From: Salinirubellus salinus
Lineage (GTDB): Archaea > Halobacteriota > Halobacteria > Halobacteriales > Haloarculaceae
Length of the DNA stretch: 64,000 nucleotides
NCBI RefSeq assembly: GCF_025231485.1
Contig: NZ_CP104004.1
Span: 62,001-126,000 of the forward strand
Reading direction: 5' to 3'
Both the position numbers and the translations under genes were made by a program. The first letter of the stretch is position 1; each line of letters starts with the position of its first letter. Below are positions 45,516 to 64,000 of this stretch, in pieces. The notes below the pieces were generated by a model that was not told the DNA's origin, did no database searches, and saw nothing but the letters and a program-made list of their open reading frames with translations.

Positions 45516-46535
45516 CTAGTCGCTCTGGATACGCGGAGCGAGCATGGCGAGGACGTCGCATTCGCCGTCGCTGAACTCGTACTCGAACATCATCGGGAAG
45601 TCGCTCCCGAAGGTGAGCGTTATCTCCGTGCCCTTGGGGAACTGTTTGGAGATGTCGTTGACGTAGTCGAGGCTGTAGAGTGCGTTGCCGTCAGCGGCCG
45701 AGAGCGCGACGAGGTCGTCATCTGCGAGTTCGAGACTGACGTTGTCGGTGTCACCTTCAGCTTCGATGTAAACGCTGGCCTCGGCCTCGTCACAGCGGAA
45801 GCGGATGTGGTCAGAGACCATATCGGCGGCCTTGACGCCACGCGAGATTTGTGCTTCCTCGAGCGTGAGGGAGATGGGCAGGTCCATCTCGGGGATTTCG
45901 GGCTCTTTGCGGATGCTGTCGGGGTCGATGAGCGCCATCGTGAAATCGACGCCGTCGATGTGAATGACGAGCTTGAACGACGTGGTGTTGAACGAGAGTT
46001 GGACGAGGTCGTTTTTCTTGGCGAGTTTGAGGACTTCCTCGAAGCGTTCGAGGTTGACACCGAGGACGCCCTCGGTAGCGTCGTAGGACTCGAAAGCGCC
46101 GGCTGCGAGAGAGACGTCGTACATCGCGACGTTGGCGGGGTCGACGGCTCGGGTGTGGATACCGTCTAGGCCGACGCGAATTTTTGCTTCGTCGACGATG
46201 GCGCGAAGCGTGCTGACGAACTCCTTGATCGCCCCACCCTTGATGGCGGCGGTGAACTGCTGGGGCGGGCTCGTGACGACCTCTGCTGCGTCGTCGGCCT
46301 CACCTTCGCTTTCTGATTCGGTCTCCGTCTCCCCCTCGGTGTCGTTCTCGGCGGCTCCGTCTCCGCCGGTGTCAGTGTCGGTGTCGACGCTGGGGTCGGA
46401 TACCAGTTTGGCTTCTGTTTTGACCTCGGGTTCCGGTTGGGTGTCGATCTCGGAATCGGATTCGGTTTCAGATTCGACGTCGGGAGTGGTGGCGGGCTGT
46501 GCGTCGGCGGTGTCGGATTCGGTGTTGGTACTCAT
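45516..46535 (-). CDS. pcn: Sliding clamp PCNA with N-terminal acidic extension
   Basis: 339 residues. Residues about 92-339 are a full archaeal PCNA: FTAAIKGGAIKEFVSTLRAIVDEA, GIHTRAVDPANVAMYDVSL, LGVNLERFEEVLKLAKKND and the C-terminal MFEYEFSDGECDVLAMLAPR. Chromosomal archaeal PCNA is about 247 residues, so the first about 90 residues (alternating D, E, T and S) are an extra disordered acidic extension. The clamp trimer encircles DNA and holds polymerase, FEN1, ligase and other PIP-box proteins. A plasmid copy suggests the replicon partly supplies its own replication machinery. The next gene upstream overlaps its ATG by four bases. Confidence 0.92.
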   Translation of the reverse strand: MSTNTESDTADAQPATTPDVESETESDSEIDTQPEPEVKTEAKLVSDPSVDTDTDTGGDGAAENDTEGETETESESEGEADDAAEVVTSPPQQFTAAIKGGAIKEFVSTLRAIVDEAKIRVGLDGIHTRAVDPANVAMYDVSLAAGAFESYDATEGVLGVNLERFEEVLKLAKKNDLVQLSFNTTSFKLVIHIDGVDFTMALIDPDSIRKEPEIPEMDLPISLTLEEAQISRGVKAADMVSDHIRFRCDEAEASVYIEAEGDTDNVSLELADDDLVALSAADGNALYSLDYVNDISKQFPKGTEITLTFGSDFPMMFEYEFSDGECDVLAMLAPRIQSD

Positions 46536-47241: not shown

Positions 47242-48339
47242 CTACCCGAGGTAGTCGTCGAGATTGCCGTCTGGATCGGGGAGATCACCGGCATCGTCGA
47301 GCGAGAGAAGTTCCCGGCGGATGTTCCGGATGGTCGTTGGAGTGGAGAAGCCTGCGTCGGCGAGTCGCTGCTGTGTAAGTTTGAGGTTGGTGAGCTCGCT
47401 TTCATCGTGAGCGTGATAGAGGCACGCGGCGGCGACCCCGGCGGGCTGTCGGCCGTTGGCGAGGACACCGACAGCGGGGGCGGTGACGAGTTGGTGGGCT
47501 CGTCGTTCGACCCGGGGGTGGGCGTCGACGGCGTTGGCGAGTCGAGGGAGGAAGTCCTGCGGGAGCGGCGGTGGCGTTGCGAGTTCGAACTCGCGATTCA
47601 GCAGTCGATAGGCGCTTTTGATATCGGATTCGCCGACGCGGGCAACGGCGGTGAGTTCCTCGAGGAACCGTGGCAGGCGCTCGAGGCGACAGGCGGCGAA
47701 GATGCTGGCGGTCGCGATGGCTTCGATGGAGCGCCCACGGAGGAGATTGTTCTCCCAGGCGTCGCGAAAGAGTCTCGCAGCGCGGTCGTGGATCGGTGTG
47801 GGGAGCTCGGCCGCACTCACGAGACGGGCGATTTCTCCAAGGCCGGTACGGAGCGACTGGTCGTGAGTGGTACTCGCTTTCGCTCGGTCGTCCCATTTAC
47901 GAAGGCGTTTGAACTGGCGCTGTGTCTTCGATGAGAGTTCGTTCCCGTAGCCGTCGCGGTAGGAGCCAATCTCGGTCGGGAGTCCCTTGTCGTGGCGTCG
48001 GATGGTCGTGGGAGCGCCGCCCCGAGCGGGTTGCCGTTCGCCATCGGCGGTTGTCTCCCACTGGAGTTCCCGATCAAGGATGTCTCGGGTGACCACGAGG
48101 CCGCACGCCTGACAGAAGGTTTCAGTCTCGTCGACGACGAGGTGTTCGTCGGTCGCACACTCGGGGCAAATTGGGTCACCGACCGGTTGGGTGCGTTCGG
48201 GCGCCAATTTCTGGGCAGACGACGGCTCGGAGTCGATAGCTGGGGCGAGTCCCCGCTGGTGGGTACCGAGGGGGCTGCCGGACGGATGGGGCCCGGGACG
48301 GGCGTTGCTGTTCGCGGCCTCGAGATAGCGTTGGGACAT
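47242..48339 (-). CDS. tfb: Transcription initiation factor TFB
   Basis: 365 residues. After about 55 variable residues comes a zinc ribbon (CPECATDEHLVVDETETFCQAC), a B-finger/linker segment (DRELQWETTADGERQ), then two cyclin folds: GLGEIARLVSAAELP, FRDAWENNLLRGRSIEAIATASIFAACR and FLPRLANAVDAHPRVERRAHQL, GRQPAGVAAACLYHAHDE. TFB bridges TBP-bound promoters and RNA polymerase and reads the BRE. Haloarchaea carry several TFBs, and plasmid-borne ones are divergent; this copy could serve the unusual promoters of its own replicon (inference). Confidence 0.92.
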   Translation of the reverse strand: MSQRYLEAANSNARPGPHPSGSPLGTHQRGLAPAIDSEPSSAQKLAPERTQPVGDPICPECATDEHLVVDETETFCQACGLVVTRDILDRELQWETTADGERQPARGGAPTTIRRHDKGLPTEIGSYRDGYGNELSSKTQRQFKRLRKWDDRAKASTTHDQSLRTGLGEIARLVSAAELPTPIHDRAARLFRDAWENNLLRGRSIEAIATASIFAACRLERLPRFLEELTAVARVGESDIKSAYRLLNREFELATPPPLPQDFLPRLANAVDAHPRVERRAHQLVTAPAVGVLANGRQPAGVAAACLYHAHDESELTNLKLTQQRLADAGFSTPTTIRNIRRELLSLDDAGDLPDPDGNLDDYLG

Positions 48340-53494: not shown

Positions 53495-55177
53495 ATGCGT
53501 CCACTTTCCGAGCGGGTATCGAACCTCTCCCGCCGTGACCGACTTATCGCCATCTACCTCCTCGGACTCGCGGTACTCGTGGCGTTCTACATGATCACCT
53601 ATAACATCATAATGGCGCGCCTGGAAGGGGTGAACCAGTCGATATTCGCCTCTTTCGAATTCGTCGTCCAGACGATGACGACGACGGGGTATGGCCAGGA
53701 CTCCGGGTTCTGGAGTCATCCAGCGACCTACCTCTTCGTCGCTCTCACGCAGATCTCTGGCATCGCTATCGGCTTTTTCACCCTACGGCTCATCATCATA
53801 CCTCTATTCACTGGTGCCGAGGTGAACCTCGACAACCGGCTCACCCCGAAGCAGGATCACGTCATCATCTGCGAGTACCGTCGTGACTCCGCTGTCCTCC
53901 TCGACGAACTCCAGGAACTCGGTATCGATTACGTGCTCATCTCGTCCGACGAGGAAAACGCGCAGGAACTCTCTAACGAGGGGTACTCCGCCATCCATGG
54001 CTCTCCACAGGACGCCTCGGCGTTCGACCGGGCCAGCATCGACAGCGCTCGGATGGTCATTACGGATGCTGGGGACGCGAACGTCAACACCATCCTGACA
54101 GTCCGGTCGATTCGTTCGGATATCGAGATTCTCACGCTCACCGATGACAGTGAGATGCGCGATATCCTGCTCGATACAGGTGCGGACACTGTCCTCTCGC
54201 CACACGGAGCGCTCGGCCAGCGGCTCGCAGAGAAGGCGATCTCATCGATCAGCCTCGATCTGACAGACACGATCAACCTCGGCGGTGACTTGGAGGTGAT
54301 GGAGATTCCGGTCCACCACGGGAGCCACCTGATCGGCTCTCGGATCCGTGAGTCGAATATCAGGGAGGAGACAGGTGCGAATATTATCGGGGCATGGATC
54401 GATGGGGAGCTCCAGTTGCCCCCCAACCCTGACGCTATCATCCGCCAGAATACTGTACTCCTCGTCACCGGGGGGAGCGAGGCGCTGGAGTCGTTCAGCG
54501 ACTTCACGCGTCCGGCACGCACGCTCCACAGGCACGAGGACATCGTTATTGCCGGCTATGGTGAGGTCGGACAGGCGGCTGAGGACGTCCTCACCGATGC
54601 CGATATCGAGACGACGACCATCGACGTTGAGGACCGCAAGGGCGTCGATATCGTTGCGGAAGCAGGGGCAAAAGAGACCCTCGTGGCGGCAGGTATCGAG
54701 AACGCCGGGGCGATCATCGTCGGCCTCCCCGACGACTCTGCATCGCTGCTAACGACGGTGTTGGCACGGTCCCTGAACGAGGATATCGAGATTCTGGCAC
54801 GGGTCAGCGAAACCGATGCCACGCGGAAGGCACTGAGCGCGGGGGCCGACTACGTCCTTTCAGTCCCCCGAGTGAGCGCGCGGATGGTCGCTAAGGAACT
54901 CCGGGGGGAGGAGATCCTCGCGCCGGCGAGCCAGATTCGGCTGATTCAGGTGCCCGCAGGCCCGTTTGCTGGCTCGACGCTTGCCAAGTCAGAGATTTAT
55001 GAACGAACTGGCTGTCGCGTAATCGCCGTTGAAGATGATGCGGGACTCACCAGTACGGTCGATCCCCAGCGGCAGTTCACTGGCGACGAGCGACTTACCA
55101 TCGTTGGCACGGATGAAGCGGTCCAGCGGTTCCTCAAGCAGTTCGATGTCTCACCGATGCAGGAGACCGAGACGTAG
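53495..55177 (+). CDS. Potassium channel with two RCK/TrkA modules
   Basis: 560 residues. Two membrane helices (LIAIYLLGLAVLVAFYMITY and PATYLFVALTQISGIAIGFF) flank the selectivity filter TTTGYGQD near residue 68. Then come two RCK repeats: the first starts DHVIICEYRRDSAVLLDEL, with a diverged nucleotide loop (CEYRRDS), the second EDIVIAGYGEVGQAAEDVL, with an intact GYGEVG. TrkA-C like domains lie after each (GDLEVMEIPVHHGSHLIGSRI; SQIRLIQVPAGPFAGSTL). It gates K+ flow in response to nucleotides, ions or redox state. Placed after the Usp-APC pair, it makes the island an ion/osmotic stress cassette. Confidence 0.9.
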   Translation: MRPLSERVSNLSRRDRLIAIYLLGLAVLVAFYMITYNIIMARLEGVNQSIFASFEFVVQTMTTTGYGQDSGFWSHPATYLFVALTQISGIAIGFFTLRLIIIPLFTGAEVNLDNRLTPKQDHVIICEYRRDSAVLLDELQELGIDYVLISSDEENAQELSNEGYSAIHGSPQDASAFDRASIDSARMVITDAGDANVNTILTVRSIRSDIEILTLTDDSEMRDILLDTGADTVLSPHGALGQRLAEKAISSISLDLTDTINLGGDLEVMEIPVHHGSHLIGSRIRESNIREETGANIIGAWIDGELQLPPNPDAIIRQNTVLLVTGGSEALESFSDFTRPARTLHRHEDIVIAGYGEVGQAAEDVLTDADIETTTIDVEDRKGVDIVAEAGAKETLVAAGIENAGAIIVGLPDDSASLLTTVLARSLNEDIEILARVSETDATRKALSAGADYVLSVPRVSARMVAKELRGEEILAPASQIRLIQVPAGPFAGSTLAKSEIYERTGCRVIAVEDDAGLTSTVDPQRQFTGDERLTIVGTDEAVQRFLKQFDVSPMQETET

Positions 55178-57540: not shown

Positions 57541-58404
57541 TCACTCCTCAAGGCCGGCGTTGGCGACGGCCGAGGCGAGGGCCGCTTCGTCGATGGCCTC
57601 CTCTTCCGTCTCCCCCTCGGGTTCGGACTCGACGTTGCTGTCGGTGTCGTGGTCGCCGTCATCGCTCTGGTCGGCGTCGTCGGCGTCGTACACGCGGGTG
57701 GAGCCGTCCTTTGTGTCGGCCTCGGCTTCGACCTCAACCTCGCCATCGGCGTCGTCGTAGCGGACGGCGTCCATCCCAACGTCTTCGCGAGCGTCGTTGA
57801 GGCCGTCGCGGTAGACTTCGAGCGAGAGGTTGTCCCCGTACTGTTCGCGGCACATCGCGACGTAGGGGGTCGAGTCGGTACCGTCCTTGTCTCCGTCCTC
57901 GAAGGCATCGAGGCGAGCGGCCGTCCGGTCGATGGTTTCGCGCACCCACTGGTTTCGGGTGGCTTCATCGACGCGGGTGATGGTCTCGGGCCGAAGGGAG
58001 ACGTTCACGTTGCCGTCGTCGGTTTCGTACGTGCTGGGCTTGGCGGTGATAGCGACGTACGCGGGGGGTTCGAGGCCGGAGAGGAACGCGGCGGCGTCGG
58101 GCTGGTACTGACCGGCGTAGACGAACACCGTCCCCGTGGGATCGACGATTCGGGCCTGCCAATATTCGCTGTCCTTGCCAACGTCGTTGACTTCGGTGAC
58201 GGTCCCGACCAGGAAGTAGCGGTTCGCGGTCTCGCCGCTGGGGAGCAGCGCGAAGTTCGGGGCGCGCTCCTCGTCACTCTGTTTGAAGACGTGGGTTGCG
58301 TCGTTGAGTTCGGCGGCGAAGGCGCGCTTTGCGACCTGTCTGCCCTGTCGCTGGGTGCTGTTGCTATCGGTACTGCTGTCGGCTGTAGATGTTGAGTTAC
58401 TCAT
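57541..58404 (-). CDS. RPA-associated protein (COG3390-like)
   Basis: 287 residues. Residues about 20-150 are an OB-fold: RQVAKRAFAAELNDATHVFK, RYFLVGTVTEVNDVGKDSEYWQARIVD, TVFVYAGQYQPDAAAFLSGLEP, VAITAKPSTYETDDGNVNVSLRPE. This matches the haloarchaeal RPA-associated proteins (Rpap) encoded beside rpa genes in Haloferax. The C-terminal 110 residues are acidic and disordered. The 38-base gap to the upstream RPA-like gene supports co-expression. It probably stabilises or loads the RPA-like subunit on single-stranded DNA. Confidence 0.8.
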   Translation of the reverse strand: MSNSTSTADSSTDSNSTQRQGRQVAKRAFAAELNDATHVFKQSDEERAPNFALLPSGETANRYFLVGTVTEVNDVGKDSEYWQARIVDPTGTVFVYAGQYQPDAAAFLSGLEPPAYVAITAKPSTYETDDGNVNVSLRPETITRVDEATRNQWVRETIDRTAARLDAFEDGDKDGTDSTPYVAMCREQYGDNLSLEVYRDGLNDAREDVGMDAVRYDDADGEVEVEAEADTKDGSTRVYDADDADQSDDGDHDTDSNVESEPEGETEEEAIDEAALASAVANAGLEE

Positions 58405-58442: not shown

Positions 58443-59396
58443 CTACGCGAGTGGGTCGGCCTCATCGACGAGGAGATATTTCCCGATGACGCGGCCGCTG
58501 ACTCGGTAGTAGCGACCGACGAGGGCGTCGGGGAGGTCGTTCGCGACGACGCTCGTATCGAGAGCGTCCATCGCTTGCTGTTTGGCCTCCTCGATGGTGA
58601 TGTCGGCGAGGGCTTCGGTCGCCTCCTTGTCGAAGATGGCGTGCTGGACGCGCACGCCGTCGTCGAAGACGGCCTTGATGCGGAGGTCGAACTCGCCTTC
58701 GACCTTTCCGTGTTCGGCACACCGGCCGTCCTGGAGGACGCGCGTACAGCCGTCGTGGGGACAGCGCTTGATGAGCCCGCTTCCGGACTGGATCGCGACC
58801 ATCGGGGCCTCGATGGTCAACTCCTCGGCGTTGTCGCCGACTTCGATATCGTCATCGACGGGATCGATGACCGTCCGGGAGTTGAGGTTGATGGAGTAGC
58901 AGCCTTCGTACTCGCTGGTGACGACGTTGTCGAGTCGGTACACGCCGTCCGCGTCGAGTTCGGGAAGCTCGGCTTTGGCCCACTTGGTGAACTTGAGTCG
59001 GCCGCTCTCGTCGCCGATGAGCCCGACCTGGGCGATGCTGTCGCTGGTCGGCTCCCATAGGTCGACGACTTTGACGGTGACGCTGACCCACTGGCCGTCG
59101 GTGTTGATTTCGTCGAGCGTCGTGTCGCTGGCACTCTGCGAGGGGAGTGCGAGGTCGTCGTATTCGATGCCGAGCACCTCGAGGTAGTGGTTGCGCGTGG
59201 CGCGAGTAGCCTCCTCGAGCGGCACGTTGTAGCCGTTAACCATCTGGTCGAGCCGGGTGACGATATCGTCGACACTCGGGAGGGCTTCATCGCCGGCGTC
59301 GTCGGGGAACTGTTCGATGAGGGTGGTCGCGGTCGTCGCGAGGTCGTCGCTGGAGGCGTTGACCGCCGAATCTGCGGGTGTTGCGTTGGTGGACAT
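58443..59396 (-). CDS. RPA-like single-stranded DNA-binding protein
   Basis: 317 residues. An OB-fold (WVSVTVKVVDLWEPTSDSIAQVGLIGDESGRLKFTKWAK..., about residues 100-150) and an Rpa-type zinc segment CPHDGCTRVLQDGRCAEHG (about 215-233) followed by a second OB-like domain (FDLRIKAVFDDGVRVQHAI). The order OB, zinc finger, OB and the adjacent RPA-associated gene match Haloferax rpa3-rpap3. It binds single-stranded DNA in replication and repair. A plasmid copy beside PCNA suggests the replicon carries its own replication accessory factors. Confidence 0.82.
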   Translation of the reverse strand: MSTNATPADSAVNASSDDLATTATTLIEQFPDDAGDEALPSVDDIVTRLDQMVNGYNVPLEEATRATRNHYLEVLGIEYDDLALPSQSASDTTLDEINTDGQWVSVTVKVVDLWEPTSDSIAQVGLIGDESGRLKFTKWAKAELPELDADGVYRLDNVVTSEYEGCYSINLNSRTVIDPVDDDIEVGDNAEELTIEAPMVAIQSGSGLIKRCPHDGCTRVLQDGRCAEHGKVEGEFDLRIKAVFDDGVRVQHAIFDKEATEALADITIEEAKQQAMDALDTSVVANDLPDALVGRYYRVSGRVIGKYLLVDEADPLA

Positions 59397-59617: not shown

Positions 59618-59896
59618 TCAGCGAGCGTCTTCGAGGCTGATGGTTTCGTCGGCACTAATCCATCCGCCGAGGGCGGCACGCTCGATGATGGCGAACGACC
59701 CGTCTTGGAGCGTGGCGAAGCGCGTCCCGACGGTCGGGCCTGGCCCCGGCGGGTCAGGCCGGTATCGGTCGTCGGGATTGACCGCTCGCGAGGGATCTTC
59801 GCCGTCGACGATATCGAGGGCAAACAGCTCCTCGTCGGTTTCGGTATCGGTGTCGCTGTCGCTGCTATCGGGATTGGAGTTGGTATGTGAGCACAT
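59618..59896 (-). CDS. Small acidic protein after OB-TFIIS gene (DUF7331-like)
   Basis: 92 residues from the ATG at 59896. Acidic start (MCSHTNSNPDSSDSDTDT), then RFATLQDGSFAIIERAALGGWISADETISL, a short beta-hairpin domain resembling the haloarchaeal DUF7331 pattern (a strand with D/G turn, then WI). It follows the upstream gene by 10 bases. Role unknown. Confidence 0.5.
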   Translation of the reverse strand: MCSHTNSNPDSSDSDTDTETDEELFALDIVDGEDPSRAVNPDDRYRPDPPGPGPTVGTRFATLQDGSFAIIERAALGGWISADETISLEDAR

Positions 59897-59906
59897 GAGT
59901 GTGAAG

Positions 59907-61643
59907 TTAGCTGTCGTCGCGCCAGCGCTGGCCGCAACTGGCACACGAGAGGAGTCTGGTTGGTGGCTCGTCGATGGAGCGGAGTTGGACGAGTCGGTAG
60001 TGCGCCCGGTCGTGGGAACACTCTGGACACCGGCAGGTCGTCGTGGGCAGGCCGAGGCTCGGTTCTGTCGTCGCCGTCGTCTCGGAGGTGTCGGGAGTCG
60101 CGACGCCGGTGAGCGCGTTCGTGCTGGGGTCCTCGGTGGTCGCTGCGGTATCGCCGGTGGCGTCGGAGTCGTCGTTCTCGAGTGCGGTTCCGAAGTGGTC
60201 GAGGTTGCGCACGAGCGCCCAGAGACGGCGCTTGCCCTGTGGGACGGGATGGTCTGGGACGGGCATCGAGTCGGGCTGTGAGGTGGCAATGACGTCGTGG
60301 ACGGCGGCGTGAATCGCGTCTCGGTCGGCGTCGGAGTCGACGAGGACGGAGACGACGTTGGCCTGTTCGCGCCACCAGGTCGGGAGTGGGATGCCGCCGT
60401 CTTCGTCGAATATTTCGGTAGCTTTGAGCCATTCGTGGGCGTCCATCTGCCCGCTCTCTTCGGCGTCGAGGCGGTCGACCGGCGTGTGGACGGGACGAGA
60501 GACTTCCTGCACACCGGGTGTGCCGAGCGCGGGTATCGAGCGGCCGCCGTGCCGCTGGAAGGGCTGTTCGATGCCGCGCTCACGATTTGCTTTGGCGTAT
60601 TTCGCCCAGTCGACGTTGGGGATGTCGCCGCGTGGCGCTGGCCCGTCGCCAGCCTCGATGACCGTGATGCGAGTCTCGGAGTCGGCGGCGAGCGTCGCTT
60701 GGCCCTGATATTTCCCGACTTTCCCGGCGACAACGCGCACGAGGTCGCCTTCGTGGAGGATGGTTCCCTGATTGGATTTCGTCCAGACGGTGAATTTGAT
60801 GGTCCCGGTGTCGTCTTCGATGAGGCCGACCTGCTGTTGGGTGCGGGATTTGGGTTGCCAGAGTCGCGTGACGGTCCCCTGGATGTCGGCTTCGACGTTA
60901 TACTTCGAGGGGATGATCGGCACGGAAGAGATGGGCTGGATGACGCCCGCTTCCTGGTAGAGTTCGTCGAGGACGTTCGATTGGGCGGTGAAGAGGTCCT
61001 GTCCTCGGGCGACCTTGCTGGCGAGGCGGTGTTCGAGGATGGGCTTGTTCGGGGGTGTGACGAGGCGGTCGGTGATTCGGTCGGCAGCGTCGTGCACGCG
61101 CTGGGTGGTTTCCTCGTCGAGCTGCTCGAACGGGTCGTAGGAGTGGATGTTGTCGCCGATGACGCGGTCGTTGTAGTCGGCCCGGCGCTCGCGGTACTCG
61201 GTGAGGAGTTCCCCCCTGCGCCGTGTTTCCCGGTCGATGCCCGCGACGTGGGCGGCGAGGGCTTTCTCTCGCTGGCGTTTACGCTCTTCGCGAAGTCCGT
61301 GGAGGCGCTCTTGAGCTTCGAGTGGGAGTCCACTGAGGTCCTCGTCGGTGAGGTCCATCGGGTCGATGTCTCGGGCTTGCGTGGTGCGGAGGCTTGCACC
61401 CACCCAGTAGGCGTCGAGTTCCTGTCCGCCGGTGCCTTCGATTTCGAGGCCGAACTCGTCGTATTCGGGCTGGGTCCGGGCGGCCATCATGAGCTCGCCT
61501 GCGTTCTCGAGGCGGACGCCGAGACAGTCGCTCTCGAGGTGGGGGCTCTCGTAGAGGCCGCGAAGTCGGAGTTCGTCGAAGCGGTCATCTTGTTCGACAT
61601 CGCTGTTCGAGAGGCGGTGCTGTCCGTCGTGGTAGTATGTCAT
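59907..61643 (-). CDS. RPA-type OB-fold protein fused to TFIIS/TFS zinc ribbon
   Basis: 578 residues from the ATG at 61643. Helical N-terminus (residues 1-240), including a basic-acidic stretch LEAQERLHGLREERKRQREK. The OB-fold lies at about 265-335 (VEADIQGTVTRLWQPKSRTQ, QVGLIEDDTGTIKFTVWTK, LVRVVAGKVGKYQGQATLA). After a roughly 180-residue linker, the C-terminus is a zinc ribbon: CPECSHDRAHYRLVQLRS then IDEPPTRLLSCASCGQRW. This matches the TFS/TFIIS ribbon, including the DE dipeptide that reaches into the RNA polymerase active site. I know of no described fusion of this kind. A link between single-stranded DNA binding and transcription is inferred. Confidence 0.75.
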   Translation of the reverse strand: MTYYHDGQHRLSNSDVEQDDRFDELRLRGLYESPHLESDCLGVRLENAGELMMAARTQPEYDEFGLEIEGTGGQELDAYWVGASLRTTQARDIDPMDLTDEDLSGLPLEAQERLHGLREERKRQREKALAAHVAGIDRETRRRGELLTEYRERRADYNDRVIGDNIHSYDPFEQLDEETTQRVHDAADRITDRLVTPPNKPILEHRLASKVARGQDLFTAQSNVLDELYQEAGVIQPISSVPIIPSKYNVEADIQGTVTRLWQPKSRTQQQVGLIEDDTGTIKFTVWTKSNQGTILHEGDLVRVVAGKVGKYQGQATLAADSETRITVIEAGDGPAPRGDIPNVDWAKYAKANRERGIEQPFQRHGGRSIPALGTPGVQEVSRPVHTPVDRLDAEESGQMDAHEWLKATEIFDEDGGIPLPTWWREQANVVSVLVDSDADRDAIHAAVHDVIATSQPDSMPVPDHPVPQGKRRLWALVRNLDHFGTALENDDSDATGDTAATTEDPSTNALTGVATPDTSETTATTEPSLGLPTTTCRCPECSHDRAHYRLVQLRSIDEPPTRLLSCASCGQRWRDDS

Positions 61644-61938: not shown

Positions 61939-62526
61939 ATGACTGATCAAGCGCCAGCCGAGTTCGCGGATATCAACGAGGAGGTCCGAGAGGATTGGAA
62001 GGAGGAGACGACACCTTACGAGCGTGTTCGCCACGTTATCGCCCACACGTATTCACCCGTGTCGGCAGACACCGTCGCCGAGGACGCTCTCACCTCGCCG
62101 AAGACGGCTCGAAAGCACCTCAATGCACTCGCCGACGAGGGGTTTGTCGTGACGGCTACCGGCGAGCACGGTGGGACAACTTACCGCCGGTCCCCCGAAT
62201 CGCTCGTCGTTGAGCAGGCGGCAGATATCCTCGAGCACGTCTCGACGGATGAACTCGTCACGCGTATCGGCGAGATGCGCGATCAGCTCAACGAGTATCG
62301 CTCTGAATACGGCGTTGATTCGCCTGAAGAGCTAGCCGTCGAGCAGACGAACCAGACACTCGAGGATAGAGCATCGGACCAGCCGGAAATTGATTCGGAG
62401 ACGATTCAAGAGTGGCAGACGCTCCGGCGCAACCTCGCGTTCGCAAACGCAGCCCTCTCGATCGCGAATGCCGAACGATTTGTCGATGGTGATCGTCGCT
62501 CGACCGACCGCAGTATTTCGGCCTAG
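61939..62526 (+). CDS. Winged-HTH protein (DUF7342-like), probable antitoxin
   Basis: 195 residues from the ATG at 61939. Winged helix at residues about 18-75: ETTPYERVRHVIAHTYSPVS, AEDALTSPKTARKHLNALADEGFV, TATGEHGGTTYRRS. The C-terminal half is helical with a coiled-coil flavour (ELVTRIGEMRDQLNEYRSEYG). Such wHTH proteins in haloarchaea are regularly followed by a small TumE-like gene, as here after 3 bases, forming a likely type II toxin-antitoxin or regulator pair. It would bind its own promoter. Confidence 0.75.
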   Translation: MTDQAPAEFADINEEVREDWKEETTPYERVRHVIAHTYSPVSADTVAEDALTSPKTARKHLNALADEGFVVTATGEHGGTTYRRSPESLVVEQAADILEHVSTDELVTRIGEMRDQLNEYRSEYGVDSPEELAVEQTNQTLEDRASDQPEIDSETIQEWQTLRRNLAFANAALSIANAERFVDGDRRSTDRSISA

Positions 62527-62529
62527 TCG

Positions 62530-63012
62530 ATGTCGAATCCAGCTGGAACGGAGGAGAGCCACTCACTCCGTGGGCCGATTGACCGGTCAGCCCTGATCAC
62601 AATCCGCGATATTATCGACGAGACAGAGCCCCTCGCGACACCTTCACTCGACGACTATCTCAACCCGTCTGTACTTGAGATCAGCCTCAAGGATGGCCTT
62701 TGTGGGGCCGATAATGGGCGAATTGACGTCCAGTGGACAGTCCGTGGAGACTACAAGTTTCACTATACCGACTCCAAGGGCGTGAACTTTCGGTGGGGAA
62801 AGCATCCACACGATGGGGACTATATCCACGTGCCCGGTCTCGAGCATTATCACCCACCACCTAATGCGAGTTCAGACCCGGACGAGGTAGAGGAATCCTG
62901 CATCAAGCAGTCACCGGAGGCACTGGTTACTCGTGCTGTGCTCAAACTCTGGCGTGTCGCCTACCACAGCCAGTCATATGACCCGCTGAACGCTGGAAGC
63001 AATCCTCCGTGA
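62530..63012 (+). CDS. TumE-like protein, probable toxin partner
   Basis: 160 residues. N-terminal LITIRDIIDETEPLATPSLD, then the compact domain VQWTVRGDYKFHYTDSKGVNFRWGKHPHDG followed by VPGLEHYHPPP. The strand pattern ending in a histidine-rich HYHPP resembles TumE/DUF6516-type toxins (YHW..., R.DN.PH, H.H). It starts 3 bases after the wHTH stop. Toxicity is not shown by sequence alone. Confidence 0.6.
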   Translation: MSNPAGTEESHSLRGPIDRSALITIRDIIDETEPLATPSLDDYLNPSVLEISLKDGLCGADNGRIDVQWTVRGDYKFHYTDSKGVNFRWGKHPHDGDYIHVPGLEHYHPPPNASSDPDEVEESCIKQSPEALVTRAVLKLWRVAYHSQSYDPLNAGSNPP

Positions 63013-63120: not shown

Positions 63121-63397
63121 TCATATCAAAGTAGGAAGGGCCACTCGCCTTTCCATTCCACTAACGATGAGCTGTAGCGCCGTTACGTGAGCGAGTTTCT
63201 GTACTGACTGCTTCTGTTCGACGTGGTCGTTCGCGGTCTGTCGTCAAGGGCGCGCTGGAGCCACGTTGAATGTACGCGGGATTGTGGGAGGTTCCAACGA
63301 GAAACCGACAGACAGCGCAGGGATACCACGATACAGTTATCATCGCTGTCAGCCTCTCTGCGAGTGGAAAGCACGGCGCTTTCTTACTTTGATATGA
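63121..63397. repeat. 277-bp inverted-repeat element (MITE-like)
   Basis: 19-bp arms TCATATCAAAGTAGGAAGG (63121-63139) and CTTTCTTACTTTGATATGA (63379-63397) match with two mismatches, and similarity continues imperfectly inward to about 33 bp (both reach CTTTCCA). No transposase or clear coding frame lies inside. The right arm contains the ATG of the last gene. Confidence 0.5.
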
Positions 63398-64000
63398 GTG
63401 GATACACCGACAGGTCCGACCTCACTGAGGACGGACAACAGAACGGCAGTACCGAAATCGAACACAACACCGAACATGAGCACCCCACCCACACTGTTCG
63501 CCTGTTCTCACAGGCGGCAGACCACGGATTCCCGGCGACGGTTCGCCTCTCCACCGAGGAGATCCGCCGTCTCGACGATGGAGTGGAATCCCCGACGATT
63601 CGTCGGTGGCTCAACCTCGATGCAGACACGAACGCAGACGCGAGTTCCCACTCGCCGTCCGCACTCTCGACAGAGCGTGAGTTCCGTGGCACTGTGGATG
63701 GACAACACTCGACCACCGAATCTGACTCCGAATTCGACACCGATGTCGACGTCCTCGCCGATGTCGATGCCGGTGTCGACTTCGACCGTGAGTCCGAGCG
63801 TACTGGTGCGCACGAGTCCGGTTCTGAACTCGAACTCGAACGTGAATCCGAGGGCGTCTACGGCTGGTACGATGACCAACCGATGGTCGCGTCTCGGAGT
63901 GATGAGCGGAGGACTGAGATGAACGCTTGCGGACGACCCGCTGATGCGCTCTCTGAGTCCGATGTTCTCGCACGTGGGCAGTACATCTACATGGGCCACG
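63394..64000 (+). CDS. Hypothetical acidic protein, 3' end outside window
   Basis: 202 residues are visible from the ATG at 63394 and the frame is open at the window end. N-terminal domain TVRLFSQAADHGFPATVRLSTEEIRRLDD, then IRRWLNLDAD, followed by a long low-complexity D/E/S region (DTDVDVLADVDAGVDFD) and WYDDQPMV. The start codon lies inside the right arm of the 277-bp element, so the element may supply the promoter or may have replaced the original 5' end. No family recognised. Confidence 0.6.
   Translation, partial: MSGYTDRSDLTEDGQQNGSTEIEHNTEHEHPTHTVRLFSQAADHGFPATVRLSTEEIRRLDDGVESPTIRRWLNLDADTNADASSHSPSALSTEREFRGTVDGQHSTTESDSEFDTDVDVLADVDAGVDFDRESERTGAHESGSELELERESEGVYGWYDDQPMVASRSDERRTEMNACGRPADALSESDVLARGQYIYMGH

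Follow-up and report, generated by a model that had tools for sequence, protein, structure and literature searches.

A haloarchaeal plasmid protein joining an OB fold to a TFS-type zinc ribbon: a candidate transcript-cleavage factor tethered to single-stranded DNA

The window analysed in this work, by which we mean the whole stretch of 64,000 nucleotides, runs from base 62001 to base 126000 of the second contig (C2, 249,332 bases) of Salinirubellus salinus, the chromosome (C1) of the same genome being 4.13 Mb in length. Towards its end lies a minus-strand gene whose product joins an RPA/SSB-type OB fold to a zinc ribbon of the kind found at the C-terminus of TFIIS and of archaeal TFS. The strand agrees with that of the neighbouring genes and of annotated relatives, the alignments of orthologues begin at the same methionine or close by, and the 578-residue reading frame is confirmed as a real protein gene. 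In all ten of the full-length plasmid records it is called a 'hypothetical protein'. An earlier note, made from the letters of the window, had described the factor as replicon-encoded, and the gene does lie on a second replicon of 249 kb. The features of the locus are as follows.

59907..61643, minus strand: the whole fusion gene, 578 amino acids from the ATG (intact open reading frame and aligned orthologues)
61335..61643, minus strand: residues 1-103, a strongly conserved N-terminal segment (dN/dS 0.02-0.23 in pairs with the window copy), AF2 pLDDT mostly below 50
60897..61334, minus strand: residues 104-249, a helical segment common to ribbon-less plasmid SSB-like proteins (sequence comparison and AF2)
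60609..60896, minus strand: residues 250-345, RPA/SSB-type OB fold (profiles, AF2, Foldseek; dN/dS 0.06-0.16)
60210..60608, minus strand: residues 346-478, a middle stretch, for which a small alpha/beta part is predicted at about 410-477 (AF2, moderate confidence)
60054..60209, minus strand: residues 479-530 (to about 535), a disordered, fast-evolving linker (pLDDT about 26; dN/dS mostly 0.3-0.65)
59910..60053, minus strand: residues 531-578, TFIIS/TFS C-terminal zinc ribbon with an LPTT lead-in and Cys 539/542/567/570 (profile, structure, alignment)
59967..59972, minus strand: the catalytic Asp-Glu pair of the ribbon tip, D558-E559, invariant in both alignments
59618..59896, minus strand: 92-residue protein with no known domain, directly downstream of the fusion gene and conserved at most orthologous loci
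58443..59396, minus strand: replication factor A, RPA (NF005553, 380 bits against a cut-off of 353)
57541..58404, minus strand: RPA-associated-protein (RPAP)-like gene (by its position after RPA; PGAP 'DNA-binding protein' in relatives; no Pfam match above cut-off)
47242..48339, minus strand: plasmid TFB, of the TFIIB family, in the same core block (PF00382, 95.6 bits; synteny)
45516..46535, minus strand: plasmid PCNA-like sliding clamp (PF00705, 43.8 bits)
63223..64000 and on to C2:127622, plus strand: start of a divergent gene of 800 codons, a helical and OB-fold paralogue (sequence comparison)

The ribbon, which has the pattern CPEC-x24-CASC and contains the sequence QLRSIDEPPT, is matched by the Pfam profile PF01096 over residues 538-575 with 49.5 bits (E 3.6e-13) against a cut-off of 21; its score with the archaeal TFS profile, TIGR01384 (TFS_arch), is 31.4 bits and lies below the cut-off of 64.75. 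The closest solved chain is PDB 1qyp (T. celer RPB9/TFS, E 6.8e-8), followed by RPC10, RPA12 and TFIIS. An AF2 model of the ribbon, built from an alignment with the TFS C-ribbons of the host, has a mean pLDDT of 83.9, the rows from the plasmid collection having been left out of the alignment for structure prediction. The predicted structure has the three-stranded TFIIS/RPB9-like fold, and when it was compared with the PDB using Foldseek the top 48-49 matches were all ribbons of TFIIS, RPA12, RPC10 or RPB9; the matches include 3po3, a reactivation intermediate, and 3gtm, the backtracked Pol II-TFIIS complex. The earlier note had proposed a TFIIS/TFS ribbon that keeps its DE pair, and this is upheld by the profile score and by retention of the pair in the orthologues, while Foldseek gave a TFIIS-family fold and no sign of an unrelated ribbon. 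Chance resemblance is excluded by the PF01096 score, by conservation and purifying selection among the orthologues (see below) and by the Foldseek matches.

The archaeal TFS proteins (TIGR01384), of which the host has paralogues on chromosome C1, share with the fusion ribbon the four cysteines, the RSxDE tip, the W-R ending and the (L)PTT lead-in. Since the host TFS C-ribbons can be aligned with it through this lead-in, ahead of the first cysteine pair, what was fused appears to be the complete C-terminal module of a TFS. Archaeal TFS, however, is a protein of about 100 amino acids made of two ribbons (N-ZR and C-ZR), whereas in the plasmid-borne fusion the N-terminal ribbon is missing, no second cysteine pair being found toward the N-terminus of the 578-residue sequence, and the ribbon stands behind some 530 residues belonging to other domains. 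Eukaryotic TFIIS and the polymerase subunits RPA12 and RPC10 have the ribbon fold and the acidic tip in common with the fusion, which has none of their other domains; the match to TIGR01385 is confined to the ribbon, and domain II of TFIIS, the helical domain by which it docks on RNA polymerase, is absent. Because it has neither the N-terminal ribbon of TFS nor domains I and II of TFIIS, the protein belongs to neither family, and it is a new architecture that nevertheless carries their catalytic module. Immediately before the DE pair, where Ala is usual, the fusion has Ile, with Thr or Ala in isolated instances. Full-text searches of open-licence papers gave no description of an SSB-TFIIS fusion. 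As candidates for other TFIIS fusions in haloarchaea we inspected additional PF01096 matches in seven genomes that have three such matches; these proved to be TFS genes standing alone, probable antisense echoes or fragments.

Full-length or near full-length relatives occur in 9 of the 391 genomes of a class-level draw, and genome contigs and plasmids taken together yield about 20 full-length orthologues, 54-95% identical, from Salinigranum, Haloplanus, Halarchaeum, Haloglomus, Halorientalis, Halobellus, Halorarius, Halonotius, Halorubrum, Haloarcula/Halomicroarcula, Halosimplex and Haloquadratum. They are mostly carried by plasmids, of 130-560 kb. The four cysteines, Q-L-R, D-E, P-T-R and W-R are kept in 19 of the 19 orthologues with a readable ribbon, a set that leaves aside L034, which has a frameshift within the ribbon, and L042, a MAG with a gap of N. 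Simple Nei-Gojobori/Jukes-Cantor estimates by region, from which saturated pairs were left out, give the ribbon a dN/dS of 0.05-0.08 in most pairs with unsaturated dS (0.20 against L041), to be compared with the values listed above for the OB fold and the linker. On these estimates purifying selection on the ribbon is strong while the adjoining linker drifts, which argues that it is the ribbon itself that is being maintained and that it is no passenger. Between L041 and L043 residues 1-103 have a pS of 0.04, against 0.4-0.8 elsewhere in the gene, which suggests a recent patch of gene conversion between these two Halosimplex copies.

The residues that selection holds also bear on what the ribbon might do. 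One reading would make it a nucleic-acid-binding or purely structural zinc ribbon without any link to RNA polymerase, as zinc ribbons are widely reused and the docking domains of TFS and TFIIS are missing here; we think this highly improbable, for the conserved positions go beyond the cysteine frame and spell out the signature of the cleavage tip, Q-x-R-x-x-D-E-x-x-T-R. Alternatively, the protein could be an inhibitor of RNA polymerase directed against the host or rival elements. The model here is Sulfolobus TFS4, the one inhibitory paralogue to have been characterised, which like the fusion has a C-ribbon of the TFS type without being the housekeeping cleavage factor and which exemplifies how TFS paralogues can become inhibitors acting through the secondary channel (PMC5715097), and mobile elements could conceivably profit from a shutdown of host transcription. 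In TFS4, however, the DE pair has been replaced by three lysines, KKK (PMC5715097), whereas the fusion protein retains DE in every readable orthologue and has no lysine cluster at the tip. We therefore judge inhibition improbable, and the 'anti-transcription factor' that the earlier note offered as an alternative loses ground.

The evidence for the other half of the fusion comes from the region of residues 250-345 or thereabouts, where PF01336 matches under its cut-off and the replication factor A profile NF005553 gives 48 bits over residues 252-330, below its full-length cut-off. AF2 models this region with a pLDDT of about 80, and the best Foldseek matches are OB domains of archaeal RPA together with SSB, so that profile and structure comparison agree on an RPA/SSB-type OB fold, as had been supposed from the sequence. 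Helices are predicted by AF2 for residues 105-230 or so, which bears out the helical N-terminal part that had likewise been supposed. The full-length model has a pTM of only 0.34 and we make no claim as to the arrangement of the domains. Judging from its fold, the helical and OB part may bind single-stranded DNA.

Relatives of about 290 amino acids that consist of the helical segment and the OB fold are widespread on other haloarchaeal plasmids, where they appear as 'DNA-binding / SOSS B family' proteins, 34-40% identical to the fusion protein over about 230 residues, and the OB fold is also held in common with haloarchaeal RPA and RPAP. In those that we inspected the chain ends after the OB fold or bears no ribbon, unlike that of the fusion. 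The chromosome itself holds the relic of a ribbon-less relative (C1:2048272-2049144), 32% identical and interrupted by one internal TAG. The product of the divergent 800-codon gene is 23-24% identical to the fusion protein over 275-338 amino acids (pairwise E 1e-5 to 2e-10) and is, on this comparison, its distant helical and OB-fold paralogue; it ends in a different cysteine motif, CWVC...HPLC, and is kept both in the plasmids with the fusion and in their sisters. The likely history, as we infer it, is that a plasmid SSB-like protein was duplicated and one copy then gained a TFS C-ribbon on a single occasion. A tree of the ribbons groups those of the fusion proteins with a support of 0.96, although a single stand-alone TFS (L088) falls within the group; with about 47 sites the tree does not name the ribbon donor. 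L088 (G143 C1:108448-108561) is a third, divergent stand-alone TFS of another haloarchaeon, with the ribbon sequence QIRSVDEPVTR, and might be a pointer to the donor. A phage origin of the fusion protein was rejected on these results: it had no match in 50,697 phage records, in which the ribbon alone gave partial matches at chance level only, none in viral contigs searched with both the protein and the alignment, and none in PHROGs.

The ten plasmids that encode the full-length protein are also the ten best matches for the NrS-1-like prim-pol and for the 800-codon neighbour, and the fusion gene thus marks, judged by these matches, one coherent plasmid lineage. PCNA, TFB, DUF555 and DUF6166 belong to the core of this lineage, and most of its members carry the 92-residue protein and the RPA/RPAP pair directly downstream of the fusion gene. 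The prim-pol, at C2:132365-134623 (minus strand) beyond the window, is possibly the replication protein of the lineage; it scores 90 bits with PF22763 and 255 bits with a PHROG for DNA primase/helicase, and is annotated only as 'hypothetical' in relatives. In four sister plasmids (L101-L104) the RPA/RPAP genes, TFB and the 800-codon gene are all retained, as is PCNA where that region was read, and no fusion gene was found in the stretches read; a 525-residue gene at the equivalent site in L103 has no such domains and looks unrelated. A TrkA-type gene on the plus strand (53495-55177), with an N-terminal segment resembling an ion channel, interrupts the core block, whose other genes are on the minus strand, at a point between TFB and the small genes; the position is occupied in the S. 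rubrum relative by an IS110 transposase, and the TrkA-type gene looks like cargo inserted into the core. The plus-strand interval 61939-63012, between the fusion gene and its paralogue, contains a DUF7342/HTH gene and a 160-residue gene; other small genes take this site in the nearest relatives examined, and the Haloquadratum MAG locus L042 matches at 89%.

That TFB lies in the same core block at most loci might suggest that the two proteins form a transcription kit, by which the plasmid steers or supports the host RNA polymerase on its own genes, with the OB fold serving in promoter opening and the ribbon in proofreading and escape, and TFIIS-type ribbons are indeed found in RNA polymerase subunits too. 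TFB, however, is equally present in the sister plasmids that lack the fusion and near a ribbon-less relative, so TFB and the fusion are not coupled, and we regard this reading as rather improbable. The tie to RPA is likewise looser than the earlier note had suggested: the RPA and RPAP-like genes do lie just downstream in the window, as it had stated, but no RPA pair was seen within the flank examined in L038, L041, L043, L050 and L051.

Contacts between single-strand-binding proteins and RNA polymerase have precedents in archaea. The RPA of P. abyssi interacts with the polymerase and has a stimulatory effect on transcription (PMC3820547), and S. solfataricus SSB binds the polymerase (PMC3820547, citing Richard 2004); in both of these the link is one of protein-protein contact, whereas in the fusion protein it appears to have been built in by gene fusion. 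These interactions, the OB fold and the neighbouring RPA/RPAP, PCNA and prim-pol genes would suit a ribbon that is mainly a docking arm, holding an ssDNA-binding or RPA complex on RNA polymerase and thereby allowing replication proteins to be loaded at transcription bubbles or R-loops, as for example in transcription-coupled priming of plasmid replication, with cleavage of secondary importance. Retention of the catalytic DE would not be required of a simple dock, yet the pair D558-E559 is invariant, and we consider this reading unlikely.

The favoured reading of an OB fold joined through a long flexible linker to an intact-looking cleavage tip is that of a tethered anti-arrest factor, and we give roughly even chances to the proposal that the protein is a plasmid-encoded transcript-cleavage factor for the host RNA polymerase, held on single-stranded DNA. 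Cleavage factors restart backtracked complexes, which otherwise form roadblocks for replication forks, by reaching through the secondary channel of the polymerase with an Asp-Glu pair (PMC7289017, PMC5715097), and the enzymes that clear RNA polymerase from archaeal replication forks are stated not to be known (PMC3820547). In the proposed mechanism the helical and OB part, possibly joined by the neighbouring RPA/RPAP, would bind exposed single strands, such as the strand displaced in an R-loop or a transcription bubble, or ssDNA at a stalled plasmid fork; the flexible linker of about 50 residues would let the TFS-type ribbon reach the secondary channel of the host enzyme; D558-E559 would trigger cleavage of the backtracked RNA; and the roadblock would be cleared for the plasmid's own replication machinery of prim-pol, PCNA and RPA. 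The domains, the conservation of the ribbon and the selection on it, the gene neighbourhood and the plasmid lineage are observed; binding of ssDNA and of RNA polymerase, cleavage, and the resolution of conflicts as the purpose are all presumptive here. Against the proposal, the protein lacks both the N-terminal zinc ribbon of TFS and domain II of TFIIS, and would need a different mode of docking on RNA polymerase; two chromosomal TFS genes are present in the same genome, so the need for a plasmid factor is not obvious; and the unusual Ile before the DE pair and the absence of a nearby RPA pair from some of the fusion plasmids also count against it.

The wider proposal, which we advance somewhat more tentatively, is that one gene fusion gave a mobile replicon a rescue factor for RNA polymerase that is guided by ssDNA, namely an SSB able to remove backtracked polymerase from R-loops or from the path of the replicon's own fork. 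The fusion adds an elongation-type factor to the information-processing genes of these plasmids (prim-pol, PCNA, RPA and TFB), and as a natural fusion held by selection on one plasmid lineage it offers a Rosetta-stone hint that single-stranded DNA and the rescue of RNA polymerase belong together. If the tethered reading is true, these plasmids bring their own tool to clear stalled RNA polymerase from exposed single-stranded DNA.
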